From Liolophura sinensis (Eukaryota > Mollusca > Polyplacophora > Chitonida > Chitonidae), in NCBI RefSeq assembly GCF_032854445.1, contig NC_088295.1, positions 65,267,249-65,331,248 of the forward strand: a stretch of DNA of 64,000 nt, read 5' to 3'. Below, in pieces: positions 11,201 to 46,354 of this stretch (positions within the stretch are counted from its first letter, which is position 1; the number at the start of each line of letters is the position of its first letter). The notes below the pieces were generated by a model, which did not search any database, was not told the origin of the DNA, and was given only the letters and a program-made list of their open reading frames with translations. Position numbers and translations under genes: made by a program.

Positions 11201-14200
11201 AACACACACAAAAGAACTGATATACACATAGTATCATAGTTGTCAACTTGGTAGCTGGGGATGCAGATTTCAGTTCAGACAACTGTGATGAAACATTCCA
11301 TTTTACACTGATACTTTCAGATTGATGAGTTTGCTTAATTAAAACTTGTTTGTATACAATAAAAACATTTGGAACTAAACTTTCTTCCAATAATTTCTAA
11401 AGAAAAAAAACATACCTAGGCATAGGTTTACTCAGAGGTTGAAATGAGAGTTGAGGACAATGAGGCTGCTGGGCTGACTGTGGTTGTACTGGTCTGCTGG
11501 CAGACAGCAAGCAGGGTACAGGCTTAGCCACAGATATGCTGGGGGTTAGCATCTCGGGGGTAGCAGGTACGGGGTGGGGTTTTACTGGAACGGACATGCC
11601 CGGTTTCTCCATACGTGTTACACAATGTTTCACCTCTGGCACCTGAAAGCATTTCTCCTCAAGGCCTCGGTGCAGTTTATCATTAATGTCTGTTGCTGGT
11701 TTTGTTCCTTGGACAGGACCAGCTTTGTTTGGTCTCTCTTCTTGAGTAGCTGCTGGAAGGTGGTGGGTTTTGGTGTGACTGGTCATGCTGACAGAGCTGA
11801 CATAGCCAGACGTGTGGCCGGGGTGGGACTGGTTCATACTCTCTGCAATACACATAATGACACACATTATACACATAGTACATGCTTCTGGGATGTTATT
11901 TATTTATTTATCTGATTGTAGTTTTACACTGTACTCTAGAACACTTCACTTATACAATGACAGCCAGCATTATGGTTGGAGGAAACCCACAAACGTGTAC
12001 CGGTTGCTGGCAGATCTTCCTATCGACAACCAGAGGAAGCGAGCATTAGCTGGACTTGGAACTCACAGTAGCCGCATTGGCAAGGCTCCTCGGTCACTGT
12101 GCTGCACTCGAACGCCTACCAATAGGCCACAGAGGCCCCTTGATGCAAGGTGGGATATCAGGAATGGTCAGCTGAGAAGTAATGTTCATATCCCATCCAA
12201 CAACATACACCATATGTTTAAATTATACTAAAAAAAGAAAAACAAAACAAAAAAATCATGGTGTGCCTGATCAGTTGGTATTTTAAATCACTGAATTTGT
12301 ACATCGACAGTAGAAGACATTGTCCAGTTGTTTACATCACAAACATGCAGATATCAGACAGCACCAAAAAGGAGATAACTGCAGTTGAATACATGCATGT
12401 GATCGTTGTATATTAGCTCAAGGCTGCTGGCTAATACCTTGTGAAGGAGGAGCATTACCTTGTCAGGTTCCCAAGCCTGACATTGCTTTGCTTGATACTG
12501 CCACTACTCTGTGTTTCAAATGTGTATTGTTTTCCTCAAACCTGATCAGTGTTCTGGTTTTCTGAATACCTGATCAGTGTTCTGGTTTTCTGAATACCTG
12601 ATTCCAGTGTTCTGTATTTCTCTGTACCTGACTCCAGTGTTCTGTATTTCTCCATACCTGATACCAGCATTCTGCATTTCTCCATACCCGATTCCAGTGT
12701 TCTGCATTTCTCCACACCTGATTCCAGTGTTCTGTATTTCTCCACACCTGATTCCAGTGTTCTGTATTTCTCCACACCTAATTCCTGTGTTCTGTATTTC
12801 TCCATGCCTGATTCCAATGTTTTGTATTTCTTCATACCTGATTCCAATGTTCTGTATTTCTCCATAACTGATTCCTGTGTTCTGTATTTCTCCATACCTG
12901 ATTCCGGTGTTCTGTATTTTTCCATACCTGATTCCAGTGTTCTGTATTTCTTTCATACCTGATTCCAGTGTTCTACATTTTTCCATACCTGAATCCACTG
13001 TCCATACCCTATTCCTGTGTTCTGTATTTCTCAATACCTGATTTCAGTGTTCTGTATTTCATCATCCCTCATTCTAGTGATCTGTATTTCTCCATATCTG
13101 ATGAAAAGTTTTTTATGTCCCCATAACTGATTCTTGTGTTCTGTATTTCTCCGTAACTGATCCTTGTGTTCTGTATTTCTCTATACCTGATTCCAGTGTT
13201 CTGTATTTCTCAATATCTGATGCCAATGTTTTGTACTTCTCCGTAACTGAGTCCCGTGTTTTGTATTTCTCCATACCTGATTCCAGTGTTCTGTATTTTT
13301 TCCACAACCTGATTCCACTGTTCTGTACTTCTCCATACCTGATTTGAGTGTTCTCTATTTCTCTATACCCGATTCCACTTTTCTGTATTTCCCCATACGT
13401 GATTCCGGTATTCTGTATTTCTCCATACCTGATTTCAGTGTTCTGTATTTCATCATCCCTCATTCTAGTGTTCTGTATTTCTCCATATCTGATGAAAAGT
13501 TTTTTATGTCCCCATAACTGATCCTTGTGTTCTGTATTTCTCTATACCTGATTCCAGTGTTCTGTATTTCTCAATATCTGATGCCAATGTTTTGTACTTC
13601 TCCGTAACTGAGTCCCGTGTTTTGTATTTCTCCATACCTGATTCCAGTGTTCTGTATTTTTTCCACAACCTGATTCCACTGTTCTGTACTTCTCCATACC
13701 TGATTTGAGTGTTCTCTATTTCTCTATACCCGATTCCACTTTTCTGTATTTCCCCATATGTGATTCCGGTATTCTGTATTTCTCCATACCTGATTTCAGT
13801 GTTCTGTATTTCATCATCCCTCATTCTAGTGATCTGTATTTCTCCATATCTGATGAAAAGTTTTTTACGTCCCCATAACTGATTCTTGTGTTCTGTATTT
13901 CTCCGTAACTGATCCTTGTGTTCTGTATTTCTCTATACCTGATTCCAGTGTTCTGTATTACTCCATACCTGATTCCGGTGTTCTGTATTTTTCCATACCT
14001 GATTCCAGTGTTCTGTATTTCTCCATACCTTATTCCTGTGTTCTGTATTTCTCAATACCTGATTCCACTGTTCTGTATTTTTCCATACCTGATTCCAGTG
14101 TTCTGTATTTCTTTCATACCTGATTCCAGTGTTCTACATTTTTCCATACCTGAATCCACTGTCCATACCTTATTCCTGTGTTCTCTATTTCTCTATACCC

Positions 14201-17200
14201 GATTCCACTTTTCTGTATTTCCCCATACGTGATTCCGGTATTCTGTATTTCTCCATACCTGATTCCAGTGTTCTGCATTTCTCCACACCTGATTCCAGTG
14301 TTCTGTATTTCTCCACACCTGATTCCTGTGTTCTGTATTTCATCATCCCTGATTCCAGTGTTCTGTATTTCTCCATATCTGATGAAAAGTTTTTTACTTC
14401 CCCATACGTGATTCCGGTATTCTGTATTTCTCCATACCCGATTCCAATGTTCTGTATTTCTCCATACCTGATTCCAGTGTTCTGTATTTCTCCATACCTG
14501 ATTCCAGTGTTCTGTATTTCTCAATATCTGATGCCAATGTTTTGTACTTCTCCGTAACTGAGTCCTGTGTTTTGTATTTCTCCATACCTGATTCCAGTGT
14601 TTTGTATTTCTCTATACCCGATTCCACTTTTCTGTATTTCCCCATACCTGATTTCCCCTATATACAATGTAGTCTCGCTATAAGACGCCTCGATATAGCA
14701 TGCAATTGGATGTAACGCAACCCAAATCTTGTCTCCCAAAAATCTGTGGTGTACTTTCATGTGAGAACAGCTAAGACTGTAAATAAATAAAGATTTTCAC
14801 CAAGAAATATACATAAATAATGCAACATCATTTGCTTCATTTCCTACTGTTGGTGTGTGACCCTGTGTTATTTGATATTTTAGGCTTAAGCTTTTGCATA
14901 TTACGTGAGTATATACTATAAGCAAAAAGAAAAGAATTTTCGTATTAATAATGAAGACGTTGTAACTGGTTACATTTCCTCGCAAGTGAGTTTGATTCCA
15001 CACACACGTTTGATGTTGTATTTGCAGCATTACTTCCGCGTGTGTGTGTGGCCGTGCAGAAAACATTTCGCTCCTTGTGACAGGCATACCTCACAAAGGG
15101 ATTAATATTTGTACACTTTCAGTAAATGCTAATAACTTTAATCAGACTATTGAATGGCTATAATGCTAGGTGTAAAACTGCAGGGAGTGAGATTTGGCTT
15201 ATCAGCATAATGACAAATGACAGTTGACATGGACTCACTCACATGTTTGAGAATGGATGCTCTTCCTTTCATTTGATACCTTTACTTAGCATCATAAACA
15301 TTAAAATGGTGAACAGTATTACTGTTTTTTTCTTTAGTTCAGCAGGTATTACGCAGTCACATGATCGGCTTGACAGGGGTCTGCAGTCCGCCATTTTGAA
15401 TCTGAGACGTCTAAGTTCCGTAAGTTACTTCTGACACGAGCAGACATGGACGATTTGGATACCAAATGTAGCTGTGTTTATTTAAAAATAAAGTGGATGA
15501 AACTATGTAACTTGAATTCATCTTGCGTAAATCGTTAACATGCACCTAGTTCCGCAGATCAGCTCAAGGTAATTACGCAATAGGAGGCCAGCTTTTTAGG
15601 ATATGACTCATAGGACAGTGCTGAAATCTTTGTTCCTTAGAATACTAGCTGTATCCATAGGTGAAAAAAAATCTTATGCGTTTATAGTAAACCAACAATA
15701 AGAAAGCATTTGACAAAACACAATTTGCATCGATAAAACTTTGCTTAATGTCAGAATCATAACCTACAGGTAAGATAGACTGGAGCCCTCTATACTGGAT
15801 CTCAAGGTCATTTCATTATAGCTCCAGGTAGCCTATAACGCGTTCAGGAACCTGTCCCCAAAGCGGCTACACTGCATGTATCTGACAAGTATCATAATGA
15901 CGCAGTATTTTGTGATTTGGCTTACCTGATGCCAGTGTCCTGTTCTCATCATGTTGACTTTTGTCCAGAGGTTTGATGTCATTGAAGGACATTTCATCTT
16001 CTGAGTCTTCGTCTTCAGGAGTGACAACTGGAATGTCTAGCTTTTTCACACGGCGAGCAACAAACTTTGAGGACTTTCCTCGACTGGAAAATGAAATCAG
16101 AGTTAATTTATCATCGGCCCTGCTCATTCATAAATGTATGTGCACATTTTTTCAGACAAAGACTAAATTTAATCAAGTGGTTTACATGCAAAATTTCCCC
16201 AATATTTACATACTGAACAAAAAAACTCATGAGCAATTAAGTACACATTATCTTTAAATTATACATTTCCTTATTTATTTCATTGGTGTTTTACACCCCT
16301 ACTCAAGAATATTTCATCTATCAGGCAGCAGCCAGCATTATCCTGGTAGGAAACCGGGTAACATGTAAGTCAGGGGGAAACCCATGACTATCCACAGCTT
16401 GCTGCCAGAGCTTCCCACATTATCTTTAAGAAAGCAAAACAGATCACTCACTAATCAATGGCACAATGATGGAAGTTATGATGCAGACATATCACAAAAT
16501 CAGTACAAAGACGACTTTTGAGTACATTTCTTTTCACGAAAGCCTTATCAAATAAATCAATGATTAAAGTGCCAAATTCATTTTGGGAAAATGTGTGTAA
16601 AGAGTAGAAATCTTTAATTTTCATTCCAATGTTAAATAAAAATCAAAGTACCAGGACAAAGCCTTTTTCTCAGATTTGACGTCTGGAGTGCTATGGTAAG
16701 ACCGAAAAGGAGGCCTTGAGCAGCTTGCTGGTGGGGGAGGTGGTGGATGGTAAGCATGGCTCTCAGTCTCCATATCTATAGGGGCAGTGTTGTTATCTGC
16801 TGTCCCAGCCACATCTCCTGTATCAACTCCCAAATCTTTATTCCTGAAACAAGGTCTGCAACAAAAAGTGTACACATTTATTATTTACTTATTTGATTGC
16901 TGTTTTCCACCTTACTCACCCATTCACTTTCACTTATACGACAACTGCCGGCATTATGGTGAGAGGAAACCGGGCCGAGCCTGGGGGAAACCCATGGCCA
17001 TCCACAGGTTCCTGTCAGATCTTCCCATGGAGAGGAACTCACAGCAACCACATTGGTGAGAGGTTTCTGGATCATTGTGCCACCCTGGCGTGCTAACCCC
17101 CTTGGCCGTAGAGGCCCTGTCAAGTGTATACATACTGTCGTAAAATGGTATCCTTTCAAAGCTAATCATCACGATGTCAAATTAAAGACAGAACAACATA

Positions 17201-20200
17201 TACACTGTAACATCTTAGATGTTGCACTTTGATCATTTTTTGCCATAGCAACAGTTCCTGGTCCTGCTTAATACTAGCACCACTTTTGGCAATTAGCAAG
17301 GCTACCAAAGAGCTTGCCTGTAGGAGACACATAAATGCCAAACTTCAGCTCAATACACAATGTACTGAAAACATGAATTTGGTCCTTTATGGCAATTAAT
17401 ATGCACAGATCATCAGCAATGAATCATCCCCCGTGTGTCACTGTGCTTCATACGCATGTAAAACTTCATGCTGTACTTTCTGACATACTACCCTTAACAT
17501 TTTCTTAACATTGCTTTCTCTATTATTGTACGCCGTCACCCAGGGTGCGACAAAAGCTATGCCTGTACTTTGTACAGGCAAGCCATAAGGTATGCCCTCT
17601 CCCCATTTAATATTAAACATACTATCTAACCTTTCCTATTTCACTAGCACATTTACACAATATGCATGCAGTTAATTTATCGACTGGAATTTCTTGAGGC
17701 TCAAAGAATAATAAATGCATATTATGCATAAACCTCTAACAGAAGTTGATATTGAACTAACAGCTACAAGTACATGTAACACATAATCCAGAACATCCTG
17801 GCTGTTGATCATACTTGTGATCAGTGTGGCTGTCCTCTCTTGGCATGGCCAGGTGAGCCATTGTGTTCATCTGACTGTGCTTAGAGCTGTCGCCTCCAGT
17901 AACAGGGCAAGAGGAAAAGCCTTTGGGAAAACTGGAAGACAATTCAAGTGTTCATCAGTATCAACAATGAGTACATCTGTACATTGTCATTACACTTAAA
18001 AAACTCTGGCCCAATGGCTAAGTTGGTAAAACTTGGGCTTCCGGGGTGGCTGATCCAGGGTCAATCCTGGGTCGGGTCACACCTAATATCTTAAAAGAGG
18101 AAGTTGTAGCCTTCTTGCTTGGCGTTCAGCATAAAGGGGATAGTGCAATGACTGGTTGACCTGTATCAGTATAACTGCTCGGGTGGTGCGGCTTACTTGC
18201 CTTCGCTATTAAGTCATCTCAGTGAAGCAGCACTAGATGAAAGAGTGGTGGAAATCCGTCCAGCACATACATGTACATGCACTCTAAGGACTCCTTCATT
18301 GTCACATGAATGAAAAATTGTAAAGTACGACGCCAAACCTCCCTTGAGAAAAAAAGGAACCAAACAAATATGACATAATTAGATTTGGTCAATCATTCCA
18401 ACAGCTGCAATGTACTTTTTCAGATGTGTGTTTTTATATTACCACTTACATGTACATGTATATGTGGAGGGACCAGTTTTGCAAAGATGTCGCACACGTA
18501 CGATAATCGCACATATTGGACAAAGGTACGGTAATAGTGACGTACAAACTATCGTACGACAAAATCGTCATACGCCGCTTTGTGAAACTTGGCCCAATGT
18601 TGTAAATAAAATCATTTTGAACTTAAGGGATGAATTTCTGAAAAATTACACATGTTAACAGAATGTCACAATGAAAAAATAAAACAATGAGTGTTTTTCA
18701 TAGCATATTAAGTTGCTGATTTTACAATATTCAATATTTATGCCCTTTTACACCAGCTGTTGGGGTTTAGGGTTAGTCAGAACCTGGAAATTTAAGACCT
18801 ATAAATAACACAACAGCAATGACACAGGTTCAGGGGTGGAGGGGACTGACAAGAGTATATGCAAAGTTATATATCCTCTACAGCGGACTAAGTGTTTGTC
18901 TGTCCTTGTCAGTATTTGTGAGCCAAATCATATCTGTTGTACAGCACGCAGTCAGTGGTTGTCCACTGATCAATATCAGGTGGAGTCAAATGTCACAAAG
19001 CAGCCTACACAGAGACAATTATACTTATTTGTTGTACAGTGAAATGAGCACTTGTCTGCAACAATCAGTTTGTTTGAGTCAAATGTGACTAAAAAGTATA
19101 CTACATGTATGTGACAATAATACATAGATTTCAAGTTTACGGCATGCACAACTTGCTGCACACGGCATACAGTAAAATCATCTGTCGTCAACCAATATCA
19201 GTTCAATGCTACACAGAAGACTACACTGATGCAAACATACTTGTTGTACAGTACTGTCAGTGGTTGTCCACCAATATCAGGAGTTCAATGTTACACAGAA
19301 GACTACACTGATACAAACATACTTATTGTATAGTGCCGTCAGTGGTTGTCCACCAATCTCAGAATGAGTCTAATGTCACACAGAAGCCCGCAATGAGACA
19401 GTCATACTTACTTGTTGCACAGTGGAGCAAGTGGTTGTCTGCTATTATCAGTATGACTCAAATCCCCAGTATTGTCCAGACTTTTAGTATTGCCACTTTG
19501 GTTTTTTTCAGCTGCAAATAAAAGAATTTCACTTTTGGGTCTAACACAGACACCACTAAAACATACATAATCAGTTTTTCTATGACAATTTGGAAAATAC
19601 TCTTCTATTCAAGTATAGCATATCTCACCTCCATTTTCTCATACTAACAAAGCTGGTGCTTGATATATGATCACATTTTCACATGTTTTGGAAAAGCTGA
19701 TTCATTTCACTGTTGCTTAACTCCAGAAGGTTTTTTCCTTTATACAATGGCAATCAGTTTTAGAGATGGAGGAAAATGGAGTGCGCGGGTTAAACCACCA
19801 ACTTTTGGCATGATACTAGTGAGCTTTCCAACATAGTATCTCCAGATAAGCATGCCATACTGGTGGTAGCCAAGTGGTCTTCACCAAATGTTAGAATGCA
19901 AAAATGGTCCTTCTCCAAACTTCTCCAATTGCATATTGTCACCATGACTCCACAAACAGTAAAAGCAGTGTAATGTACAAATTCCCTGTTCAAGGCGTGG
20001 TTAAGACTCGCACCTTGTGTACTCCAGCAAATGAAAGGCAAGAACCTTAACCACTCGTCCATGACATGCTCCTTCTGTTAAAATTATCAGACGCACACGT
20101 ATTTCACTTTTCAGAAAATGTTTATCATTACAGCACCAGAAAATTTACATGATACAGCAAATAATTATGAGCTTATGACTATTCACATACAAGTGTATAA

Positions 20201-25085: not shown

Positions 25086-25499
25086 TCTGCAGGAACAAGG
25101 CTTTTAAACATCTAATCTTTCATGTGGGTCTGCAATCAAATGACAAAATCAACTGGAACAAAAACTAAACAGCACAACATTAAAACTGAAATCGGAATGA
25201 ATTCAAGTTTAAAATGTTTGTTTTTATGACATAAAACTTAGCACAGTATTGATTACAATGAAATATAAGACATTTGCATCTGAAGTTTCCAAACTCATAG
25301 CCCAGAAAGACTCCAACTCTGGCCTTAAATTGCTTGGCCCAGTGTAGTTACACCAGCTAAGCTTTGGGTTAATGTAGGCTTACAACATACCCAAACAATT
25401 GAAGCCATCTGAATCCGAATACATTCAAATACTTCACAATCATTTCAAATCGGTAAATCTAGAACTCAAATCAGATGCACTCGAACCAGTCAGTGTCAC

Positions 25500-25830
25500 G
25501 CTTCACCATACTTACATGATGTTGTTGTTGTCGCTCTCCGGTGAACACAAATTTTACGGGATAGAGGGAAGCGTTTAGCCACCAGGTAAGATCAAAGTTA
25601 TCGGTAAAACTATATTATCTGTTTACACACAAGGACAGCACCGAAAGTACAGATTTTTGTGCACGCAAAACTAAGCAATTTAAGCCACATTAACCCAACT
25701 TACTGTAAAACTTGACGACGTTGTTTGAAAGATCCGGCGCTTGATTTTCATTGGATGACAATGATGTCAACTGCACTTCCGGGAACAACACAAGGGTCAA
25801 CACGTTCATCAAGGTAAGGTGGTTTGCATC
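25500..25830. promoter_or_regulatory. Candidate bidirectional promoter between TTK and the TAZ-pseudokinase gene
   Basis: A minus-strand 5'UTR exon of TTK is suggested by a strong donor at 25514-25515 (CATCAT|GTAAGTATGG on the minus strand), pairing with the acceptor just before the TTK start codon (ttcctgcag|AATGG). On the plus strand a strong donor (catcaag|gtaagg, about 25811) could end the first noncoding exon of the downstream gene. Between them lie an ETS-type core (acttccgg, about 25775), an inverted CCAAT box (attgg, 25750-25754) and TTTGAA (25734-25739), a CHR-like hexamer found in cell-cycle promoters. Transcription start sites cannot be read from sequence; this is inference. Confidence 0.45.
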
Positions 25831-26158
25831 ACCATTCTGGTTAAAACAGGCGTTTTTTCGGCGCTGTTACTTTTTGCAAAACGTTTAAACACGTGTATTA
25901 TTGGGCATAATACATGATTCTTGAAACCAATGATAGAAAAGTGTGACAGTGTTCGAGGACATTGGAGAAAATGACGCAAATGTCGTTTTCTGGTTGTCCA
26001 ATGGCAATTTCAGGTGGTGTAACATGTGTCAAGTGACTTTTTATGTGCAAGCTACAGCATAGTGAATGTAGGCTTGATGGTGGTATTATACAGTTTAAAT
26101 ACATACACATGCGTAGCATTACATTTTTGCACATGTCTGGCCTTCTGTAACAAATAAC

Positions 26159-26425
26159 AGGCCTCCGTGGCTCAGTTGGTTAGTGCGCTAGTGCTGCATA
26201 ATGGCCCAGAGGCCTCTCACCAATGCAGTCGCTGTGAGGTCAAGTCCAGCTCATGCTGGCTTCCTCTCCGGCCGTAAGTGGGAATGTTTGTCAGCAACCT
26301 TCGGATGCTCGTGGGTCTCCCCCGGTCTCTGGCCCGTTTCCTCCCACCATAATGCTGGCCGCTGTCGCATAGGTGCAATATTCTTGAGTACGGCATATAA
26401 CATAAATCAAGTAAATAAATAAATC
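26159..26425 (+). mobile_element. tRNA-derived SINE, family 1, full-length plus-strand copy
   Basis: Starts ggcctccgtggctcagttgg. The B-box-like part is gtgaggtcaagtccagctc, the body ccaccataatgctggccgc and the tail aagtaaataaataaat. Reference copy for the family in this window. Confidence 0.85.
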
Positions 26426-26459
26426 TCTAACAAATAAAGCTACTACATGAAACATACCT

Positions 26460-28479: not shown

Positions 28480-28600
28480 ATCTATCATGGGCTAAGATGA
28501 CTGGTAAAAGCCTGGCAGACATCTGTCAGGTAATGTTGTCATCAAAGCCATACATGCCATAGCCTCTATTGTCAGTCTGGTGCGATTTATAACACAAAAG
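28480..28600 (+). promoter_or_regulatory. 5' leader with a short upstream ORF
   Basis: A good acceptor (tttcattttcag, ending 28479) opens transcribed sequence ahead of the main ATG at 28601. An upstream ORF starts at 28497 (ATGACTGGT...) and ends at TAG 28560-28562, 21 codons, not overlapping the main frame. A possible donor at 28530 (cag|gtaatg) and acceptor at 28575 would give a 46-nt intron, too short to be convincing. Confidence 0.45.
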
Positions 28601-30749
28601 ATGGCATCAGGTAGTGATGAACAGTTGTCAGACCCTGGGGTGCGGGAGAGGACAACTGGACACAGTGATGAGCAGAGCCGTTCCATGGGACAAAGCCCTG
28701 TAGGAAACCAGAATCTTGACTCCACAGGAAATCATTTGGCAAAATGTGATCGAATGGTCTCCAGTGTAGCCAAGGTAGCCAAAGAAACCATCCAGCTTTG
28801 GGATGATTGTCGCCAAAAGATGATTGGACCCGCCAATAATGACATTGTACCAGAGGCAGTTTGTAAAATTAACAAACCAGAAGCTGAATATCCATGCAAA
28901 GCCAATAAGATGCATTCCCTGAAATCTGTTAAGCCCCACGATGAAGTGTATCCCTCAATTGATCCAGATGGTCTAAAAGTTCAGAGCAGTGAAAGTTTTC
29001 ATGCCACACAATATGCATTTGACAAGTTCTATAGCTTGTTATATTCTAAGCATATTCAACTCAACCCACATGCTCCCCAACACCCAAGTATTTTTGCACA
29101 GCTACAACCAGCGAGAACTTATGAAGGCCTTAAGATTCAGGATGGTCAGCTTGAAACGTGTCGGATGCAGTCAGCTGAAGAAAACTCAGAGCTAGGCATT
29201 AGGAAGACTGCAGTTATGGGCCCAGATGATTCCAATACATGTACATCCACAGGTGGGACCAGAGATAGTGTGCACAGTTGGAACAGTGGCTCCGCTTCAG
29301 ACAGACGTTCTAAATATCAATCCTCCACGGAAATGAGGCAGGAAGAGGGCTACAGTGATAGTGATGTTTTTGATGAAGGACAGCCTGATATTCCATACAG
29401 GAGGCAAGTAAGCGATACAGGCAGTCTCCCAGATGTTATTCTCTCGACCAGCTCTACAGCGGAAATGTCTGAAATGTCTCCGGATCTGCTCCAGCCAGAT
29501 CCTGCATGTCATCAATCCCTGGCGCGAAGCCTGTCTGATAACAGCTGCAACGTTGCTGTTGCTGATATGCCTTTGCCCTCTGCTGGAGCGTCTACATGTA
29601 CCTCGAAAGAGAAGAAGTTGGAAATGGAAGGCAGGGTACATGATCCCAAAGGTAAACTGAAACGACAGGTCAGTTTCAGTACGGAAATATCCATTTGTGA
29701 AAATGGCAGCAACAGAATGACCTCCACATCTGCTGAGGATAAGAGGAATAGATACTCGCACAAAACATCTGGGTATGGAACTGGAGAAAGCAGCAAAAAC
29801 TCCACAGAGAATGGCAGCACAGAGGACAATACATATACAGAAGTGTTCTCACTAGAAGATGACCAGAATGGCTCTGAGACAACTGGTACCTCGTGTTCTC
29901 AAATGGGTTCAGAAACAAATCTGCCAGAATTGAGTATCCTAGAAATAACCTCTGGTACTAATACAGGTACATGTCCATTTACAGCCAACTGTGTTCAAAC
30001 CAGCGTTCATGTATGTGCAGAAGAAGCTACAGGTAGTCCCTCCAAAGATCAGGGTGAATGTATCCATAACCTCCAAGGTGAAGCAGCCTTGGCCAATCAG
30101 AATCAACCTAATTTGAGCATTCTGATGAGAAAGGTCCCAGACAATTCTAACACTCTGAACAGTTTCAAGGATTCTCAGAAACATCCACCTGCTACAGACA
30201 CATCTCTGTCCTGTTCTCAGCAGGCAGGATGTCTGCCTAACTTGAGCATCTTGAGTCGCAATGGTAGCAGCTTGATGGTGTCAACATCTGAGCGCAATGA
30301 TAGCAGCTTGATGGTGTCACCATCTGAGTTACCCTCAGAAGAGAAGTTATCTGGTGAGAGGGAGGAGACAGTGCCTCCAGAGGTGCAGGATTGTCTGACA
30401 TCTACAGCTAGTGGAGAGACCAACCGAACAGCAGAGTCAGATAGCTATGCTCTAGAGACGCTAAAAAATTTCCAGAAATTAACTGCTGTGCAGAAACTTC
30501 ATAACTCACAGTTTTCACTAGATAAGACGAGGCGTTACAGTGACAGGCACGTCAACAAGCCGCTGACGGACAAAGCATTTGTGCAGAAGGCACGAGATGA
30601 TCTTATAGCCAATTACTTTGAGGATTTGCTACTTCTCCTGACTCCAGACTCCAGGGAGTTTGAGCAAACCATACAGTGGATTCAGCATCTTTTAGCTCCA
30701 GAGAGCTCCCCGAGCCCTGTGACACCCTTAACCCCGCAGATCCGCAAGG
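28601..30749 (+). CDS. Exon 1: long Ser-rich N-terminal region with linear motifs
   Basis: Encodes residues 1-716. Mostly low complexity, with no catalytic domain seen. Three copies of a PxLSIL motif occur: PELSIL (about 442), PNLSIL (about 503) and PNLSIL (about 546). A 36-bp tandem duplication encodes RNGSSLMVSTSE followed by RNDSSLMVSPSE. Basophilic kinase-type sites recur: RRQVSDTGS, KRQVSFS, ARSLSDN and TRRYSDRH. Near the end an ordered helical stretch (ANYFEDLLLLLTPDSREF) precedes a Pro-rich hinge (SSPSPVTPLTP). The donor AAGG|gtatgtg leaves phase 1, matching exon 2. Confidence 0.88.
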
Positions 30750-33700
30750 GTATGTGTGCTACCGCTATTTTCACTAACATCTAACATTTGTTTGTTTTTT
30801 TAGTGAAAAATACTTGAAAATGATATGTAACAGTATTCAAAGAAATGAAAAAACATATTCTTGTGGCTAAAGTGGTGCCATTTTTGGCTGCTGTGGCAAA
30901 ATGAATTGGAATCATAAGTTCTTGAGAACAAACTTCTCTAGTGGCCACCAGTTCAGTAGTTGGATACAATTCCCAGTTAAGGAGAGACATGAGAAGTAAT
31001 TTTCGCCTGGTTCTTGCTAGTACTTAAAAACTTTTTGAGTACTTTTTGGTGTGAATGGATACTTTCAGTAATAACCCATTTCAGATCTCCCAAAAATATG
31101 CTGTGGTTGAGTAGTTGGTACAGAACAGGAGGCTAAAATAATTATTGACACACTTTCATATGTTGTTTGCTTCCTACAGTAGTGGAAAGAGTAGTTCTCA
31201 CTTTACACTAATATCCAATTTATGTGTCCGTCTTGTGTTCGTCCAACATCTAAGTTGTCCGTCTTATGTTCGTCCAACATATATTTTGTTTTTTTCAAGT
31301 GTTTATTTTATGGACAAGATCAGTTTTCAGGCATTTTTTTTTGTATGAAATCATTCTACTAGCAACTGTTTACATTGTCTTAACCAGCTGCATTTGAGGG
31401 CAATATTATTTGGATAGGACATTGTCTGTCTTGTGTTCGTTCGTCGTCATATGACTGAAAAATTGTTGAGTACAACGTTAAACCCCAAGCACTCACTCAC
31501 TCTTGTGTTCGTCCAACATAAAGTAGGTATTTCTGTAAAATATACTAATTCAGAAATTTTTGCAGACTTCTTTACTTTAGAATTTGTTTGCACTCTCAGA
31601 CAAATGCATTTTTAATAAACTTTTCCATGAAAAGCTATTATTGTGTATGAAATTCACTTGTGTGTCTTTCAATGTTCGTCCAACATACTAAAACCATCTA
31701 CTATTCTCAGAATGTTATAGGTCAACAGAGCTGCTTAGTTATCTAATAGATATGCTTTTCAGAAAATATAATGATTATTTTATGTGAAAAACAATTCATA
31801 ATGTGAATCAAGGTATTTTGAAAATTTTTTCAATTGTCACATGTCATGGTACACCTTTGCATATAAGCACCCTTACATGTATATTTCTGGCTGCTCGTAT
31901 ACATTGCAACTCACATTCCTGTTAAACTGCGTGATTTTGCATTACCTCTGGCCAACTTCAGGCAGACAAGTTCACCTGTTCTCAGTGCATTTACATGCAT
32001 GTGTACAGTGTACATATATACATGCATGTGCACACGTATACCTGTTCACTTGTATGGGCTTATACATCAAGTTAATCTCCTGGCTAAATAATTGATCTCA
32101 GTAAAATAATTGATCACAGTAAACCACCAGTAATTTCATGGAATTTTTCGTACAGTACTCTCCTCGCTGTACAGACTGTAGTCCACGTGGATTAGTTGTT
32201 GAAAAATATGTTAGGTTATGATTAATGCACGGTATTAAAATCACTTATAATTTCCAGTGACTTTTCATTCAGTTAGAACAGCGGGTTAACTGGTTTGTGA
32301 AAAGTGTTTACTGCGAGCATATCTGGGCCTCCCCATCTACTGGTACCCTATATCTTGTTTGAATGTGTTTTAGCCAGAGGAGCTGCATCGCCAGATCAGA
32401 AGAGAAAAAATTTTTATTTTCAAGAGCAACAGGTATGTACAGAGATAACAAAGAAGCCATAAATGCACAATGTTACTGAAATTGAACCTAGACTGATAAC
32501 AGATGAACATTTAATGGGCTTGCTCCGAATTACCTCCCTTGTTACATGATAGTGACAATGACCTAACGTGAGATTAGGTTTTTGATTTATTTATTTGATT
32601 GGTGTTTTACGCGGTACTCAAGAATATTTCATGTATACAACAGCGACCAGCATTATGGTGGGAAGAAACTGGGTAGAGTCCGGTGGAAAATTAGTTTTTG
32701 AGGCGTAAAACTTCAAGAAGTGTGACCTCGCCTATTACAGCATGCAGTTTGTAGGTTATGTCACAGTAGTGATAAATATTTTGTAGTCAAAAGAATGTAA
32801 GAAACAATATCAGTCTTTGAGAGTTGCAGAAATGTTGAGAGATCATAAATGTAGTCGATGTTTTCAGGTGAAGAGTTTACCAAAGTTGTCTGTTGTATTT
32901 ACTTAGGATTTTGAAATTACCTCCGAATGGATTAAAAAAAAAGGGTTTATCCTAGGCTTGCTAAATAAGTGTATAAAATTAAAATCTGCCTTAAAACTAG
33001 GTCATCAGCTAGCTTATTCCGTTTTAACTGAGAACCTTGCAATTAGCCATTTTCTGAGGTCCCTAACCACAGCTTACTTCTAATAACACAACTTTTACAC
33101 AGGAGAGTGGCCTCAAGGGAGGTAATTTGGTGCTGCTTGATCATGCCATTTATATACCTTGCTAGATCTAAGCCCTTTCAGGTAGCAGTAATGTTGACTG
33201 ATTTCATTTATAAACTTCATATATAATCTGTTGAACTTAGGCAATGTCATTTGACTCATGGCAGTATAAGATGCCTGGTACAATATGAACAGTGGATTAA
33301 ATCGAGTCTGATTTGCTCACAGTCATTTAATAATGTACATATGAGGGCATTGTTTTTCAGTCTGTTGATCTACAGCAGAGAGAGAAGAAACTTCAAGAGA
33401 TGTTAGTGAGGTCCTCAAGGTGTGATTACTACCTGTGCTCTGATCACAACTGTAGACAGGTAAGCTCTTATACATCACATTGTGGGGTTGATGTAGAGGT
33501 ACGTTTAGAGAGGTGTGACTACTACCTGTGCTCTGATCATGACTCTGGACAGGTAAGCTCTTATACATCACATTGTGGGGTTGATGTAGAGGTATATGTA
33601 GAGATGTGTGACAACTACCTGTGCTCTGATCACGATTCTAGACAGATAAGCTCTTATACATCATATTGTGGGGTTGATGTAGAGGTACATGTAGAGAGGT

Positions 33701-36700
33701 GTGACTACTACCTGTGCCCTGATCATGACTGTAGACAGGTATGCTCTGATACATCACAGTGTGGGGTTGATGTAGAGGTACGTGTAGAGAGGTGTGACTA
33801 CTACCTGCGCCCTGATCATAAGTCTGGACAGGTAAGCTCTTATGACTCACATTGTGGTGTTGATGTGGAGGTACATGTAGAGAGGTCTGATCACGACTGT
33901 ATACTGGTATGCTCTGATACATCACAGTGTGGGGTTGATGTGGAGGTACGTGTAGAGAGGTGTGACTACTACCTGCGCCCTGATCATAAGTCTGGACAGG
34001 TAAGCTCTTATAACTCACATTGTGTTGTTGATGTGGATGGAGGTACATGTAGAGAGGTCTGATCACGACTGTATACAGGTATGCTCTGATACATCACATT
34101 GTGGGGTTGATGTAGAGGTACGTGTGGAGAGGTGTGACTACTACCTGCGCTCTGATCATGACTGTAGACAGGTAAGGTCTTATAACTCACATTGTGTGGT
34201 TCATGTATAGGTACGTGTAGGGAGGTGTGTCTACTACCTGTGTTCCAATCATGACCGTATACAGGTAAGCTCTTATAACTCACATTGTGGGGTTGATGTA
34301 GAGGTACGTGTAGAGAGGTGTGACTACTACCTGTGCTGTGATCATAACTGTAGACAGGTAAGCTCTTATAACTCACATTGTGGGGTTCATGTAGAGGTAC
34401 GTGTAGGGAGGTGTGTCTACTACCTGTGTTCCAATCATGACTGTATACAGGTATGCTCTGATACATCACATTGTGGGGTTGATGTAGAGGTACATGTAGA
34501 GAGGTGTGACTACTACCTGTGCTGTGATCACAACTGTAGACAGGTAAGCTCTTATAACTCACATTGTGGGGTTGATGTAGAGGTACGTGTAGAGAGGTGT
34601 GACTACTACCTGTGCTGTGATCACAACTGTAGACAGGTAAGCTCTTATAACTCACATTGTGTGGTTCATGTATAGGTACGTGTAGGGAGGTGTGTCTACT
34701 ACCTGTGTTCCAATCATGACCGTATACAGGTAAGCTCTTATAACTCACATTGTGGGGTTGATGTAGAGGTACGTGTAGAGAGGTGTGACTACTACCTGTG
34801 CTGTGATCATAACTGTAGACAGGTAAGCTCTTATAACTCACATTGTGGGGTTCATGTATAGGTACGTGTAGGGAGGTGTGTCTACTACCTGTGTTCCAAT
34901 CATGACTGTATACAGGTATGCTCTGATACATCACATTGTGGGGTTGATGTAGAGGTACGTGTAGAGAGGTGTGACTACTACCTGTGCTCTGATCATAACT
35001 GTAGACAGGTAAGCTCTTATAACTCACATTGTGGGGTTCATGTAGAGGTACGTGTAGGGAGGTGTGTCTACTACCTGTGTTCCAATCATGACTGTATACA
35101 GGTATGCTCTGATACATCACATTGTGGGGTTGATGTAGAGGTACATGTAGAGAGGTGTGACTACTACCTGTGCTCTGATCATGACTGTAGACAGGTAAGC
35201 TCTTATACATCACATTGTGGGGTTGATGTAGAGGTACGTGTGGAGAGGTGTGACTACTGCCTGTGCTCTGATCATGACTGTAGACAGGTAAGCTCTTATA
35301 ACTCACATTGTGGGGTTCATGTAGAGGTACGTGTAGGGAGGTGTGTCTACTACCTGTGTTCCAATCATGACTGTATACAGGTATGCTCTGATAACTCACA
35401 TTGTGGGGTTGATGTAGAGGTACGTGTAGAGAGGTGTGACTACTACCTGTGCTCTGATCATAACTCTGGACAGGTAAGCTCTTATAACTCACATTGTGGG
35501 GTTGATGTAGAGGTACGTGTAGAGAGGTGTGACAACTACCTGTGCTTTGATCATGACTCTAGACAGGTAAGCTCTTATACATTACATTGTGGGGTTGATG
35601 TAGAGGTACATGTAGAGAGGTGTGACTACTACCTGCGCTCTGATCATGACTGTAGACAGGTAAGGTCTTACACATCACATTGTGGGGTTGATGTAGAGGT
35701 ACGTTTAGAGAGGTGTGACTACTACCTGTGCTCTGATCACATCTCTAGACAGGTAAGCTCTTAAACATCATATTGTGGGGTTGATGTAGAGGTGCATGTG
35801 GAGAGGTGTGACTACTACCTGTGCTCTGATCATGACTGTAGACAGGTATGCTCTGATACATCACATTGTGGGGTTGTTGTAGAGGTACGTGTGGAGAGGT
35901 GTGACTACTACCTGTGCTCCGATCACAACTGGATAAACATAAGCTCTTATACATCATATTGTGGGGTTGATGTAGAGGTATATGTAGAGAGGTGTGACTA
36001 CTACCTGTGCTTTGATCATGACTCTAGACAGGTAAGCTCTTATACATCACATTGTAGTATTGATGTAGAGGTGCGTGTGGAGAGGTGTGACTACTACCTG
36101 TGCTCTGATCATGACTGTAGACAGGTATGCTTTGATACATCACATTGTGGTGTTGATGTAGAGGTACGTGTGGAGAGGTGTGACTACTACTTGTGCTTTG
36201 ATCATGACTCTAGACAGGTAAGCTCTTATACATCATATTGTGGGGTTGATGTAGAGATACGTGTGAAAAGGTGTGACTACTACCTGTGCTCTGATCACGA
36301 CTGTTGACAGGTAAGGTAAGTTCTTACACATTACATTATGATGTTGAAGTAGAGATACATGTAGAGAGATGTGAGGCGGAGTCAGGTTATAAATGAGTTG
36401 TGATTAGATAGAAGGGACCAGATTTAGAAGTTTAACACTTTAAACTAATGAATACATACATGAATAATTGTGCATCTTTCTTTTGGTACAGTTTTTGTTT
36501 TTTTTTAAGAAAAAGTTAATATAAAGTTAATTAGCCTTGATATTCTTTTATTTTTTTATTACATCATATCTTGTGTCTGTAAAGTAAAATTACAAGCATA
36601 TGATTGTGTACATTTGTGATTTATTGAATTTGGTTGGTCTGTTTTGGTTTGGCAGGGAAAGCGGCTCTTGCAAGACTTAGAGAAAGCACTACTGACACAA

Positions 36701-39700
36701 CTGTCTGACAAGACATATACAGACTACTTCAGTGAACTACTCTGTTTGTTTGACCACAGTCAGCACTGTGATGAGATCAAGTGCCCTGTACCATGGTGTA
36801 ACTTTCTTAGCTGGAAGTAAGAAAACATATACATTTATGTATGTGCACATGTGCTCCTTGTGGGTGCAGTATACTGAAGCATTGTTCTCAGCAGAGCCCC
36901 TTACAAGTATAAGGCTGTAGGCTCAAATCCAGCTCAATTGTGCCAGTTTCACTGCAGTTGTCAGTAAGGTGCATGTTTGTCAGTTGGGTGGAATAATTAC
37001 CCTGGGACACTTTGCTTTTCCTAACCTACATGTATAAACCTGACTGTAATTATGTATGAGTGCAGACCCCTAGCTAATATTTATGAAAGGCATGGGGGAT
37101 TAGTGTCCTAGCCATAATAGCTGGGTATTGCCGCTTCCCCCCAGCTTCCGAGAACTTGCCACTGCTGGAGATGGCTATGTTGCAATTCAAGACCAGTTTA
37201 GATCTAGTTTAAGTCATAGTTTAAATATGTCAGTATTAATATCATGTCACCCATGGAGCTCCTCCACTTAATAAAGTGCTGGAGGAGAACTTTCTATAAT
37301 GATTTTCTTATCCTACAAGATGTACTCGTAAGTCCGTAAGTTGTCATTGGTCTTGCTTTGACAGTTTCATTTATCTGGTTCGTGAAAAAAAGAGGTAGCA
37401 TAGACTTGTTGTGTGTTTCACTGTATCGTTTTGCGGGAAAGGACAGTAGATCGAATAAAGTGTTTTTGTAGAGGCAGGGCGCACTACATTGTGGCAGACC
37501 TCTCAATAGGCATGGTGCTGCACCACACGATAAACTAGGGGTCTGGTGTCGAGATTGAAATATTTTATGGTATCGTATGGTGTAAAACAGCAGTTAAATG
37601 ACAAATAAAAATGATCATATCTGAACCTTCTGAAGTTCAACAGTATAGCTGTATAGATATGCAAACAAGTACATCTAAGTATGATTCTCAAGTCAGCTTT
37701 AACTATTTTAGACAAGTAGGCCTCTATCGTATCAGTTGAAATTGTAGGCTTATATTGCCCAATTTTTTCAAAGCTGCATGAAAGTTCAATTTATCAGTAT
37801 CATCCCAGATTGAATTCTGACACAGACATAATTATTTGATATGAAACAAAAGTTGTGAGAAATGAATTTTCAAACCCATAGTTTTCTTCAAGAATTAAGG
37901 ATTGTTGGGCCATAATGAACTACACATGTACGAGATCTCAGTAAGCAAAGATTAAACAATTGTAATAATGCACTCTACTATGTGTTTAATATTATTCCTT
38001 TTCATAGTGGTAAAATTGGATCAGCTTGAAACATTGTTGATTAAACTTGCTAATTAATTTCTTTATTCTTGTAGGTACAGCAGTGAGAGATACACAGAGA
38101 TAGATTTGAAGGAGGTCACGAAAAAGCTTACAGAATTTGTTCTTCACCCAACTCTTAAATTCACAAGCATGTCAACAAATGAAGAGACATTTTTTGCAGT
38201 GAGTTTTTTGTATGAGTTTCGGAAGCATACTTGTAGCAGGTTTCTAGCATTCCACATAACAGGATACCCTTTATCTGCTTAGAGTGTAGTTTCTACAATT
38301 GCTGATATGCTCACCAGCTTAATGGAGCACTCTCTGTGCATTCCACCGGCACACCTCAATCACTCCACAGACACATAAAAGACCAGTCATAAAAATATTA
38401 GTGCCTGTATAGAACTTTTAAGCTGGCTGATACTCTTATCTGTTTCAATATATTGTATACAAAATACAAGTATTCAGTATCATAAAGCACATCCTTCTGG
38501 TGAAACTTAATTTCTCCCATTCCCTGTTAGAGTTGCCCTCTCATTTACTTGCCCGTGCTGTTGTTGAAGCTTGATTTCTCCCATATGACAGACCCTCATT
38601 CTCTGTTACAGTTGATCTCCCATTTCTCTACACGTTCTTTTGTTGAAGCTTGATTTCTCCCATATAACAGGCTTTCATTCTCCGTTAGAGCTGACCTCCA
38701 ATTTCTCAGGTAACCGTTGATGCAGCTTGATTTCCCCTATATGGCAGTCTCTCATTCCACCTGTTTTCTGCCTGCATCGTTGTTGAAACTTGATTTCTCA
38801 TTCTCTGTTACAGTTGTCCTCCCAATTCTCTGCCTGCCCTGTTGTTGAGGGGAGGGACTGGATAGCCCTGTTGAGGATAGGAAAGTTTGGTGGCTCCGTA
38901 CTGGCCAGGGAGACTCAAACACAGAAAGACTGGGTGGTAAAGAGGGTGGGTATTTCTAGGTTCTGTCCTTCCTTCAGGTTTTTAGAGAATTTTAGTTCGG
39001 ACTGGAAAATGCTTCAGGCTGCTGTGCGCACATTACTATGGTGTCTTACTAGGATATAATGGTCGCCCAGTGGAGAATGTTTTGTCTGCGATAGAATGTT
39101 TAAAAAGTTGGTTGAGATGAGAGGAGAAGGGATATGGGAATCACACATGCAGGTATTCCCCATGATCTAAATATTTGCAGATTTATGCCCCTTGAAGTGT
39201 TCTTTTTTTTTTTTTCACATCTTTCCTGTGACCAATACTTGTGGTTTCTTAATTTTCATGACAATCAGTGACCACCTACAGATACTTGATGTCATGATTC
39301 CTTTTTATGTCTATAAATGTTCACCAGCCAGGTGTTATAGATCCGTTGCTCTACTCAGTCAATATTGAGGTATCATACCTGGGCTGGAGAAGATGATAAA
39401 TGTACAAGGTAAAGTAAGCCAATCAAAATATTTGTGACAAGTATGGTGTAATAAACCTGTTGGTGTAGATCTGCAGCCAATCAGATGGAGGCAGTCTGGG
39501 TTGGAATCTGCTACCTCATTGTTCAAGGTGTTTCTGCCTCACTTGGTGCTCAGCACTGGAAACATGGCGGGTCAGTATAATGTGACTGGGTGGAGTGTCA
39601 TGTCTGGTGTCTTCAGCATCAGTGGCGGCCGCACTTTGGTGGCATGGACCCGCCCTGCCACAAGAAGACAAAGTATATGTACGCTCGCGTAATGACACAT

Positions 39701-42700
39701 AAAATTGTTAAGTACGATGTTAAACCCCAGGCATTCATTCATTCATTCAGTGGTCAAGAGCTACAGTTCTTGAGCCAGTAATCGCCCAGATTTCATTTGA
39801 GATACATTTCAAGGATGTTTTTTTGAGCACAGGCTTGACTGTTGTTGACTCAGTTTGGTTGTTGTTGTAGGTACAGCTGACCCATCCAGAGGCAGATAAC
39901 AGATTACAGGTGTATAGAAGACTTAATAACCATGCTGCTGACCACATTGTTACTTACCTGTGGATGAAACAAACTGGAAAAGTGCTCTTTGTCTGCACGG
40001 AATATGAACCAGGTAAAAAAAAATGAAGACTCAAAAAATAGTGGACATAGATGTATTTGATAATCTGAATATGATCACCTCAATACGCCAGTATGTATCA
40101 TACATACGTGTACTTTATGTCTGAGGTTTTTAGCTTACCCCAACCTTTTGTATGTCCCCTTTATCCATTAACGTAAAACCACCTGAAAACCTGTGTGGGG
40201 TTGATGAGTTGATGGGGGAATTTTTGTTTATTGGTTAATAAAAAAGATGGGAATTTTATGGAAAATATAGTTCACAGTGAAAAGCTTGAAGTTGAACCGC
40301 AAAGAACTTATCACTTTTAGATGAAGGCTGTCAGGTTCAAGTCTTATGTACACCTAAGAGCCTGGAGTATACCATTGCTCTTCACCCGGTACCTGACAAA
40401 CTTCATGACTTAAAGCTATGGCCAGTCTTTGAACCTGTGTCATTACTGTGAGGCAGGCTGTGGCCAATCATCTGCTTTACCTTATTCATATTTAAAAAAA
40501 TAAACCAGGACTGATTACTGTGTCATTATGTTCCCTTATTTTACACAAATTTGCTTAAGTTAACCCATGCAAATAGTACAGCCCTTTCAATGAAAGGCGA
40601 ATCCCACAATCGCCGAAATAGTTTTAGGCAACCGATTGATTGCTCGGTCAAATCGTATATAGAACTATCCTTTATTGTCGTCAAAATGTCTCCCGCATGT
40701 CTTGGCCGTTCACTTGGTGATTGTTGTCATTTTGAAAACGGAAGTTGTGTGTTCTAGACTCTGCGTTGTCATGCGCTGTCAGCGAATTGATTCTGACGTA
40801 ATGTCAGTACCACAATCACAAAGTGAATTTGTTCAGTAAATTTCAATTCTTCAAACACTTTACATGTCGTGGTTGTAGCCAACTTCACCCCTAAGATGAG
40901 CTATAGCTCTCCCAATAAGATATTAGGGAAGGAGTGTGTAGGTGAGCTATAACTCAGGGAATTTAGGAGAGCTTTTGGCCTCTTGTCCAAACTCTGCTCA
41001 TTGGAAGGACCGTATTAAAATTCAGATCTGTTTAGAATGATTAATTAGTTTAATATAAGAGAAAATAATCTGTCCATTGATACAAATACACAAATTGAAA
41101 TCAGACTCCAGATTTCTTGCGTTTAATGCTTTCAGGCTAAATTTCACTCCTGTCAAATTGGACTGTTGAAGATGAAATTGTGTTTACTACTTAATTTGCG
41201 TTGATAATGTTGATATTTACAGTTAACTTTAAACTTGTTTGGTGTTAGTTAATGCCTGAATTCACATGTTGGTTATTTGGTTGGTTATCAGGTGGAAGTC
41301 TTTTTGACCACATATTAACAACTGGACCATTTGAGGCCAGACAGGCATTGCATTTCTTCAGTCAGGTGTTATCAGCGGCATCTTTTCTCCACAACTTGAA
41401 GATTTTATTTCTTTACTGGAACGGTATGTTTTTAATGGTGGTCCTAGTGACTTGTCAGAATGGAAAAAGTGTCACCCTTCTGACTACAATAATGGGGTTT
41501 GAGAAGTACATTTGTACCTGTTTTCATACTCTTTGGGATGTGAATCAGTACTGATGTACTCACATCTTTAAGGCGGGAATAAGCAGAACATGCATTACGA
41601 TGATGTTAGTGTTATTGTCATTATCCTCTTGTCGTGAGAAGGTCCAGCAGCAACCTGCAGGTGGTCGTGGGTTTCCACCGGGCTCTGAAAGGTTTCTTCC
41701 CACCATGATATTGGCTGCAGTCGTATAAGAGAAATGTTCTTGAGTACGGCGTAACACACCAATCAAATAAATAATTTACGGTCTGTCTTTGTGTGCATAT
41801 GACTAAGTTTTTTCTTCTGTAGCATGCTGTTAGTTACTTTAACAAGGAATTTAAAGGATTACTGCTAAGAATCTTCAATATATAATACCTTCCAAGTGTT
41901 TGAGAAATGGGGAAATTTACATGTAAATAAGAAATGGGGTTGTTTACCCATAAAGGACATATACCTGCTGTGATGTTAAGAGAATTTTATTTCAAACTAC
42001 CAGCGGAATTCATCAGGTTGTATTAACATCACTAAAAATGTAAGGAGGGAGATATTTCAACTGCAGATTTAGAACTTGTTAATTATGTTAACCACCTAAA
42101 CCAGTCCAATCACGGTATCAAAGGTTCTGATCTACTGGCCCATTGATTCAGTTGATCTAACAGGCAAGATCATAAATTCAGCATGTTATGTGCATATTGG
42201 TTACCTTAAAGAGCTGTATAGATACGTATAAAACTATTGATTTGAGCATCTAATTTCATGAGGCGAATTTCATATTAGTTATAAGCACTGAGACTGATAC
42301 TATTTGACTCCTCAAATTTTAAGATTTGCAATAATATAAAATGGCTGTCCACATGTGCACCACAATTTGCGACAAACAATCAGAAAGCAGATTGGTATTG
42401 TTCACCATTACCTTTTCTTCATAATTTTTATTTTTAAATAATTTTTTGTCTTATATGAAATGAATTGGTTGAAGAATTTTTCAGTCATTTTTGGTTTAAT
42501 CTTTGCTAGAAATGTTTGATTAAATTTATGTATTCATTTGTTTGTTTTAATTGATTTTCAGCCAAGAATGTTGTGTTGACAAATCGGTATGTGGCCAAAC
42601 TGTGTAATTTCTCCACAGCTGTACATTACAATGACAGCTATGATTTAGAAGAGCTGTCAAACCTTGTTCCTGCTACGCTTCTTCCTCCTGAGGTAAAAAA

Positions 42701-45700
42701 CATAGCGCTGGTGTAGCTGCAGTGAAGACTGTTACTTTGTTGTCTTATTTCTGTAGGCCCATCATAATACATGGGCCATGAAGCCAAGGCAAAGATATTG
42801 CGTGATATTTGATCAGGAAGGATCCGTCCTCAGTAATAGTGTGTGAGGACTTCTACATGTAGTTACCCCTTTTCACACCTCCTAGATGTATTCTATTCAC
42901 TTCAGTTTGCCCCCAAAAAAGTGCATCAAGTTTTTACCGAGAGAACAATATTTTAGAACCTGTTGATGAAAAATCATATATCTTCATATAGAATAATATC
43001 GTAAGCTCCGAGACCAGTTCATTCAAATTTAGTCTCCATCCTGTATGTGGAATGATACCATGAACTAGACTACTATTGACTCATATGGGTCAGTCCTAAC
43101 AGTTTATACAAACATTTCTCAAATTACAAAAGAAAAATTGACCTAAAAGATACTTGAAAAGGAACTCTGAAACAAAGATGTTTCCATGAAAATGATGAAA
43201 ATTATACCCTGGAATTTTTTGTTAAAAAAAGGTCATTTTGGGGGTATGTTTTTTATACCTGTTAATTACCCCTCTATATTAAGCATATTTTGGTCGGAAT
43301 TCAATTTGATATGTACACAGATACTGCATGGCTTCTTCAGGCCAGCTTAGTGCCCCTACATCTGCCCCATTCGGTCTGTTCCCCATCCCCCATTCGCCCT
43401 GTTCCCCACACCCCTGCCCCCATTGGGCCAGACCCATTCGGTTCATTCCCTCCAGAGTTCTTTTAAAACAGGTATCATCGTTGACCTCATCGCTGCATGT
43501 ACTTACTTTCCGGCCTGACCGCTGGAGCCTTATGAAAACTGCACTTTTAAGTCTATTTTACCCCCGAAAGTGAAAGTTGAAAAATTTGTTTGTACTGTTA
43601 TATGTTATTACACATGATAATCTGCATATTAAGAAATAAAACCAAAGTGTTTCATGTATCCTTTAGTAATAATAATTATTGTGGTAAAACTTGAGTTTTT
43701 ATAGTTACACAAACATCAGACCAGGTACAGTGGGTGAGGTGCTGAAGTTCTGGTTTCTGTTGGTTGCATCACTGATAATCCTGCTGTGAAATAGTGTAGC
43801 AGAAAGAAGAAATACATTTGTTGCCTTAGTTTTGGTTGAGTAAAATATCATGTATATTTGTGTACTTTATGTTGCCCTTTCAGTTGCTGAATGGCCAGGT
43901 AGATGTATCACTCTGCCCAAAGCAAGACTCATGGGGACTAGGTTGTCTACTGAAGGAATTGGTGACAGGTTTATCCTCCAGACAGGAGCTCATCCATGAG
44001 GACAGAACAGAGACAGAAAGCCAGGTAAGTTGCTCCGACACGCGGGTATCACTGTGTACAGGTTTGTTCTCCAGACAGGAGCTCATCCATGAGGACAGAA
44101 CAGAGACAGAAAGCCAGGTAAGTTACACTGACACTCAGGTATCACTGTGTACAGGTTTGTTCTCCAGACAGGAGCTCATCCATGAGGACAGGACAGAGAT
44201 GGGATGCCAGGTAAGTTACACTGACACTCAGGTATCACTGTGTACAGGTTTGTTCTCCAGACAGGAGCTCATCCATGAGGACAGGACAGAGATGGGATGC
44301 CAGGTAAGTTACACTGACACTCAGGTATCACTGTGTACAGGTTTGTTCTCCAGACAGGAGCTCATCCATGAGGACAGGACAGAGATGGGATGCCAGGTAA
44401 GTTACACTGACACTCAGGTATCACTGTGTACAGGTTTGTTCTCCAGACAGGAGCTCATTCATGAGGACAGCACAGAGACGGGATGCCAGGTAAGTTACAC
44501 TGACACTCAGGTATCACTGTGTACAGGTTTGTTCTCCAGACAGGAGCTCATCCATGAGGACAGGACAGAGACAGGATGCCAGGTAAGTTACACTGACACT
44601 CAGGTATCACTGTGTACAGGTTTGTTCTCCAGACAGGAGCTCATCCATGAGGACAGGACAGAGATGGGATGCCAGGTAAGTTACACTGACACTCAGGTAT
44701 CACTGTGTACAGGTTTGTTCTCCAGACAGGAGCTCATCCATGTGTACAGGTTTGTTCTCCAGACAGGAGCTCATCCATGAGGACAGAACAGAGACGGGAT
44801 GCCAGGTAAGTTACACTGACACTTAGGTATCACTGTGTACAGGTTTGTTCTCCAGACAGGAGCTCATCCATGAGGACAGGACAGAGATGGGATGCCAGGT
44901 AAGTTACACTGACACTCAGGTATCACTGTGTACAGGTTTGTTCTCCTGGCAGGAGCTCATCCATGAGGACAGGACAGAGACAGAAAGCCAGGTAAGTTAC
45001 ACTGACACTCAGGTATCACTGTGTACAGGTTTGTTCTCCAGACAAGAGCTCATCCATGAGGACAGAACAGAGACAGAAAGCCAGGTAAGTTACACTGACA
45101 CTCAGGTATCACTGTGTACAGGTTTGTTCTCCAGACAGGAGCTCATCCATGAGGACAGAACAGAGACAGAAAGCCAGGTAAGTTACACTGACACTCAGGT
45201 ATCACAGTGTACAGGTTTGTCCTCAAATTCATCAGTGAGTACACAACAGACAGAACATCAGGTAAGTTACACCGAGACTTAGATATCACTGTGTACAGGT
45301 TTGTCCTCCAGACAGGAGTTACACTGACTCAGGTATCTCTCTGTACAGGTGTGTCCGCTAGACAAAAGTTACACAGACCCAGGTATAACTGTGTACAGGT
45401 ATGTCCTCCAGACAGGAGTTACACTGAGACTCAGACCCACTGTGGACAGGTATGTCCTCCAGACAGGAGTTACACTGACTCAGGTGTCTCTTTGTACAGG
45501 TTTGTCCTCTAGACAAAAGTTACACAGACCCAGGTACAACTGTGTACAGGTATGTCCTCCAGACAGGAGTTACACTGAGACTCAGACCTCACTGTGTACA
45601 GGTATGTTCTCCAGACAGGAGTTACACTGAGACTCAGATATCACCGTGTACAGGTGTGTCCACCAGTCATCATAGCACTATTGCATGATCTATGAGTTTA

Positions 45701-46257: not shown

Positions 46258-46354
46258 CTTTGGCGCTTATGGCTGAAATACTGCCAGTATGGCATTGAAC
46301 CTCCAGAACAAAGCTGTTTCAACCTTTTACTCCATTCTTCTCTACTGTTGTTAA

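Follow-up and report, generated by a model that had tools for sequence, protein, structure and literature searches.

Tandem arrays anchored on splice sites are a real and general feature of the genome of the chiton Liolophura, a marine mollusc, and they prefer 5′ splice sites. The window, i.e. the whole 64,000-nucleotide stretch of DNA analysed here, lies on scaffold 1 of the 609-Mb, 632-scaffold genome and contains two genes that are relevant, namely TTK and a TAZ/pseudokinase gene. Five of its arrays carry copies of a splice junction of the gene in which they reside, and arrays crossing 5′ splice sites recur well above random placement in exons sampled elsewhere in the genome.

Genes and tandem arrays in the window

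TTK (Mps1 kinase) is encoded on the minus strand, and its exons match human TTK. The TAZ/pseudokinase gene (28508-46260, plus strand) begins with a large exon and also encodes a weakly recognised TAZ-type zinc finger and a kinase-like domain in which the HRD and DFG motifs are missing; for this gene, the name "TAZ-pseudokinase" given in the initial annotation is a fair one. Its architecture is unusual. When the pseudokinase exons are joined across the exon-10 junction, they match Pfam Pkinase with E = 4.5e-27. The zf-TAZ match is weak (E = 0.0028, below the cut-off) and requires exons 3 and 4 to be joined. Both joins speak for the junction positions assigned at exons 10 and 3, respectively, and together with the human TTK match they uphold the exon calls made initially, wherever these could be tested.

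Arrays were called by Tandem Repeats Finder (TRF), which finds eight substantial ones in the window. They are listed here with the exons, donor and transposable element to which they relate:

3357-3758: TRF array, matches none of its gene's junctions
6078-6341: TRF array, matches none of its gene's junctions
12540-14653 (minus): 30-bp x ~71 array; the unit (..ACACTGGAATCAG followed across the junction by GTATGG..) copies the 5′ splice site of TTK at 15925
14662-15867 (minus): dispersed transposable element, ~1.2 kb, between TTK donor 15925 and its array
15925 (minus): TTK donor, first base of the intron; source of the 30-bp array
18880-19448 (minus): 82-bp array at a 5′ splice site of TTK (intron begins at 19411); TRF extent 19200-19415, with degenerate copies running on to ~18880
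33361-33459 (plus): TAZ zinc-finger/pseudokinase exon 3, of which the final 42 bases make up the array's first repeat unit
33418-36374 (plus): 93-bp x ~32 array at the TAZ/pseudokinase exon 3 5′ splice site (intron begins at 33460); the founder unit has 42 exonic and 51 intronic bases
38518-38835 (plus): ~79-bp array with copies of the exon 6 3′ splice site (first exon base 38814); the TRF call ends at 38757 (38518-38757), and the real exon start is the last unit, carrying a deletion
43884-44024 (plus): pseudokinase exon 10 (DVSLCPKQDSWGLGCLLKELVTG...), of which the final 60 bases make up the array's first unit
43965-45318 (plus): 93-bp x ~14 array at the exon 10 5′ splice site (first intron base 44025), with a degenerate tail to 45666
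46583-46772: TRF array, matches none of its gene's junctions

Both 93-bp arrays (33418-36374 and 43965-44780) have one reading frame that stays open for hundreds of codons. In the exon-3 array, the antisense strand is also open over the same stretches.

Arrays copy the junctions of their own genes

Each junction, represented by 30 exonic and 12 intronic bases, was aligned locally to the arrays and compared with a background of ~130 donors or ~80 acceptors of other genes. The score against the gene's own array is 79 for the exon 3 donor (background maximum 32), 74 for the exon 10 donor (26), 55 for the exon-6 acceptor (26), 34 for TTK donor 19411 (23) and 35 for TTK donor 15925 (27). Thus, the initial count stands: five of the eight arrays copy a junction of their own gene, four of them a 5′ splice site and one a 3′ splice site, and each of these junctions beats all those of the background. 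By TRF coordinates, only the two 93-bp arrays cross their junction by at least 8 bp. The other three could be linked to theirs through alignment, as the units at their edges have diverged, bear a deletion or have been separated from the junction by a transposon. Displaced arrays elsewhere in the genome also find their own donor as the best match (rank 0 of 91). It had further been pointed out that the real exon end forms the first unit, but this adds no evidence of its own: any donor-spanning array would have this geometry, since the rest of the exon necessarily flanks one side of an array that includes the junction.

The 30-bp TTK array sits 1.27 kb from the donor that it copies. Almost all of this gap is filled by the element at 14662-15867, which has dozens of genomic copies with 69-87% identity and whose ends were set at query positions 34 and ~198; the array starts within ~10 bp of the transposon end. 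The array is therefore displaced from its exon because a ~1.2-kb transposable element inserted between the two.

Arrays are enriched at 5′ splice sites elsewhere in the genome

In order to go beyond the window, we used two sets of exons. Sample 1 comprises 98 exon matches in myosin, TCP-1 chaperonin and ALDH genes (200 kb), found via family searches, while sample 2 is a separate set of 48 kinesin exons. Splice sites were placed at profile edges with a generic weight matrix, the by-eye check was confined to crossing calls, and the null distribution was obtained by rotating the arrays at random inside each region. Two false crossings were removed on inspection, and no true ones that had been missed were put in, which makes the counts conservative. 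One of the two, at an apparent ALDH donor, was discarded since the array spans the stop codon of the last exon. The other, at an apparent kinesin donor, was discarded since the array (L107, 65-bp) begins ~60 bp inside the intron.

Both discarded arrays have features of their own. In the ALDH last exon (G000:C11:29420943 region, loci L074/L080), the first unit of a 79-bp array is the real C-terminus plus the stop codon, with the copies lying downstream; the array is anchored in the same way, here where coding gives way to non-coding sequence and without a splice site. The 65-bp kinesin unit holds a donor-like TCGCAG/GTCAAG and no copy of the real donor.

Over both samples, arrays cross 9 of 133 donors where rotation predicts 1.95, a 4.6-fold excess (p = 0.0001). 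For acceptors, there are 3 crossings in 126 against 1.75 expected, one of the three being marginal, which is no significant excess (p = 0.25). The suspicion raised by the window, that such arrays are too frequent for random placement, therefore extends beyond it for 5′ splice sites and is not supported for 3′ splice sites; the difference between donor and acceptor crossing is itself not significant (Fisher p = 0.14). The donor excess is clear in sample 1 alone (7 vs. 1.42 expected, p = 0.00025) and has the same direction, weakly, in kinesins alone (2 vs. 0.52 expected, p = 0.09). For the kinesins, the forecast set beforehand was a crossing rate of ~9% for donors and ~2% for acceptors, and the observed values are 4.8% and 2.4%. 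The nine donor crossings come from seven genes in four families.

The arrays are anchored at the exon edge, as all crossing arrays begin at most one period upstream of the donor. The density of array left ends is ~1.0/kb in the crossing zone (9 crossings in ~8.6 kb, at ~65 bp per donor), and within the intron it is 0.60/kb at 0-100 bp, 0.23/kb at 100-200 bp and 0.09/kb at 200-1500 bp. Left ends are denser at 0-200 bp than at 200-1500 bp (p = 0.0013).

This gradient bears on an explanation in which duplications are seeded anywhere, those in exons are purged, and those spanning a junction survive since the exon-proximal site still works, so that the window would be a lucky sample. Intronic arrays are abundant in the chiton (13% of sampled non-exon bases), crossing of acceptors is not above random, and exonic copies drift neutrally (see below), all of which such random seeding would produce. 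Tolerance, however, can at most preserve the intronic density of arrays and cannot surpass it. As its predicted maximum is the mid-intron density, tolerance alone fails to account for the gradient at donors, where crossings exceed the null and left ends are concentrated in the first 200 bp. We consider random seeding improbable. The initial proposal that selection tolerates the arrays likewise falls short as the sole cause of a donor density above that of mid-intron; it can explain the lack of acceptor enrichment. The weakness of enrichment at acceptors may reflect selection, in that AGs duplicated ahead of an exon would be likelier to be used.

A motif or the exon edge as possible sources of the excess

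We are left with two candidates for the source of the donor excess, namely a motif-driven hotspot or something tied to the exon edge or to splicing. In the former case, AGGTAAG-like sequence would be prone to slippage or microhomology-mediated duplication irrespective of splicing. Strong donor-like motifs outside true donors are found in founder units in 5-6% of cases against a baseline of 1.6% (p ~0.002-0.005), and because these non-donor motifs also exceed the baseline, it may be the sequence motif, and not splicing, that is responsible. The share is 10-13% for true donors with matching scores, compared with the 5-6% for non-donor motifs, and antisense donor motifs give a mixed picture (6.6% at score 8, 3.7% at score 9). 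A hotspot independent of splicing is harder to reconcile with the strand of the strong donor motifs, which lie mostly on the sense strand of the units (7 vs. 1 of 44, p = 0.004; the sense cases are largely crossing arrays), and with the many donor-proximal arrays that contain no donor, the numbers being small. The motif by itself is a possible but rather doubtful cause.

Extra copies resemble neutral intron

Across twelve junction arrays, mean divergence from the real junction is 0.081 for the exonic, 0.109 for the donor and 0.095 for the intronic part of the copies, with no significant difference among the three. In the exon-3 array, divergence follows no codon-position pattern, and array periods show no preference for multiples of 3 (three of the nine sampled arrays). 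Because of these three observations, the copies are taken to behave as neutral intron. GT is kept in nearly all extra copies, and the exon-3 array keeps a strong donor in 30 of its 32. The extra copies thus look like untranslated, neutral intron that carries intact donors.

The same observations led us to reject a coding function of the copies, and they weigh against the notion that distal donors are spliced, adding repeated peptide units to the protein, and that the arrays are kept by selection. The initial suggestion that any donor copy still splices likewise finds no proof in the array periods or in the exonic copies, which lack signs of coding constraint. Such functional repeats would be in keeping with periods of 93, 93 and 30 bp, all multiples of 3, with arrays that have long open frames, and with the retention of GT. 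The long frame in the exon-3 array, however, has its counterpart on the antisense strand, and the exonic parts of the copies are as diverged as the intronic ones. We regard functional repeats as very unlikely.

Relation to known systems

Minisatellites that duplicate exon-intron boundaries have been described in amphioxus as "mirages", in Adh3, the globins BflGb6 and BflGb9, PGBD5 and TnC (PMC3087553; PMC3902484); later papers also cite Canestro et al. 2002 for them (PMC3087553; PMC3902484). They have been proposed as a route to new introns (PMC3087553; PMC3902484), and RT-PCR suggests normal splicing in comparable amphioxus cases (PMC3087553). The chiton arrays share with them a minisatellite-type tandem duplication across a 5′ or 3′ exon-intron boundary, a unit length between tens of bp and ~160 bp, and AG/GT signals that recur in many of the copies. 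The real boundary of the same gene is copied in five window arrays and at nine donors elsewhere; both kinds of boundary are affected, the 3′ kind at the exon-6 acceptor and at three sampled acceptors (one marginal); and many units retain the AG/GT signals. On all the sequence-level features tested, the chiton arrays would therefore be classed as mirages. They differ in being found in a member of the Mollusca and in no fewer than nine genes, the two of the window among them, and in showing a measured donor excess. Moreover, amphioxus mirages have normal splicing by RT-PCR and documented length polymorphism, whereas the chiton arrays are known from the sequence of a single assembly. A non-exhaustive literature search found no mirage reports in molluscs, for which they are apparently new and are here quantified.

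Intron gain of the Rogers/AGGT type (Hellsten et al. 2011, as presented in PMC4974935) also involves a local tandem duplication that multiplies AG/GT junctions, but in that account the starting point is a piece of exon and the outcome a new intron. The chiton founder instead straddles an existing boundary: the units include intronic sequence, the junctions are those of existing introns, and no newly gained intron was seen. Tandem arrays are likewise abundant in the introns of other molluscs, an example being the 27-bp array in intron 3 of an abalone TSSK1-like gene (PMC6905558). Unlike the chiton arrays, that array is not described there as including a splice junction.

That arrays recur at splice sites of several genes might also call to mind introner-like or transposable elements inserting at such sites. 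However, each array repeats the exon end of its own gene, and a search of the 609-Mb genome with the 93-bp exon-10 unit gave no match outside its own locus. A mobile-element origin of the exon-10 array is thereby ruled out, and for this unit, the one searched, the dispersal of the same sequence in many introns that marks introner-like elements was not found. We give this origin practically no credence as a general explanation.

A proposed model for junction-straddling arrays

We propose that the arrays are mirage-type minisatellites, which is probably the best explanation: duplications straddle a junction, births are biased towards donors, and purifying selection acts later. A local tandem duplication would begin with a founder unit that straddles the exon-intron boundary, mostly at a 5′ splice site, and would then expand into the intron. 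The exon-proximal junction would stay the one in use, its donor presumably being the one that is spliced, while the extra exon-plus-donor copies would sit within the intron and drift neutrally, mostly retaining a usable GT. Births would be concentrated at and shortly downstream of 5′ splice sites, and purifying selection would then clear most arrays extending further into exons or disturbing 3′ splice sites. The donor excess itself would reflect a mutational bias, e.g. duplication between short repeats near the donor, and not positive selection. A broader version, in which a mutational process across the chiton genome starts tandem duplications preferentially at 5′ splice sites, through DNA damage linked to splicing or transcription or through the donor motif, is a tentative proposal to which we assign somewhat less than an even chance.

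Minisatellites at exon boundaries have previously been treated as an amphioxus curiosity, with a suggested role as raw material from which introns could arise. With arrays at ~7% of sampled 5′ splice sites in a mollusc and a density of left ends that falls off away from them, this idea becomes testable genome-wide, across chiton species and alleles. The arrays also provide natural examples of a spliceosome confronted with dozens of nearly identical donors one after another. If it is true, a donor-seeded duplication process would give the chiton a standing supply of duplicated donors, and thus a testable source of new introns.
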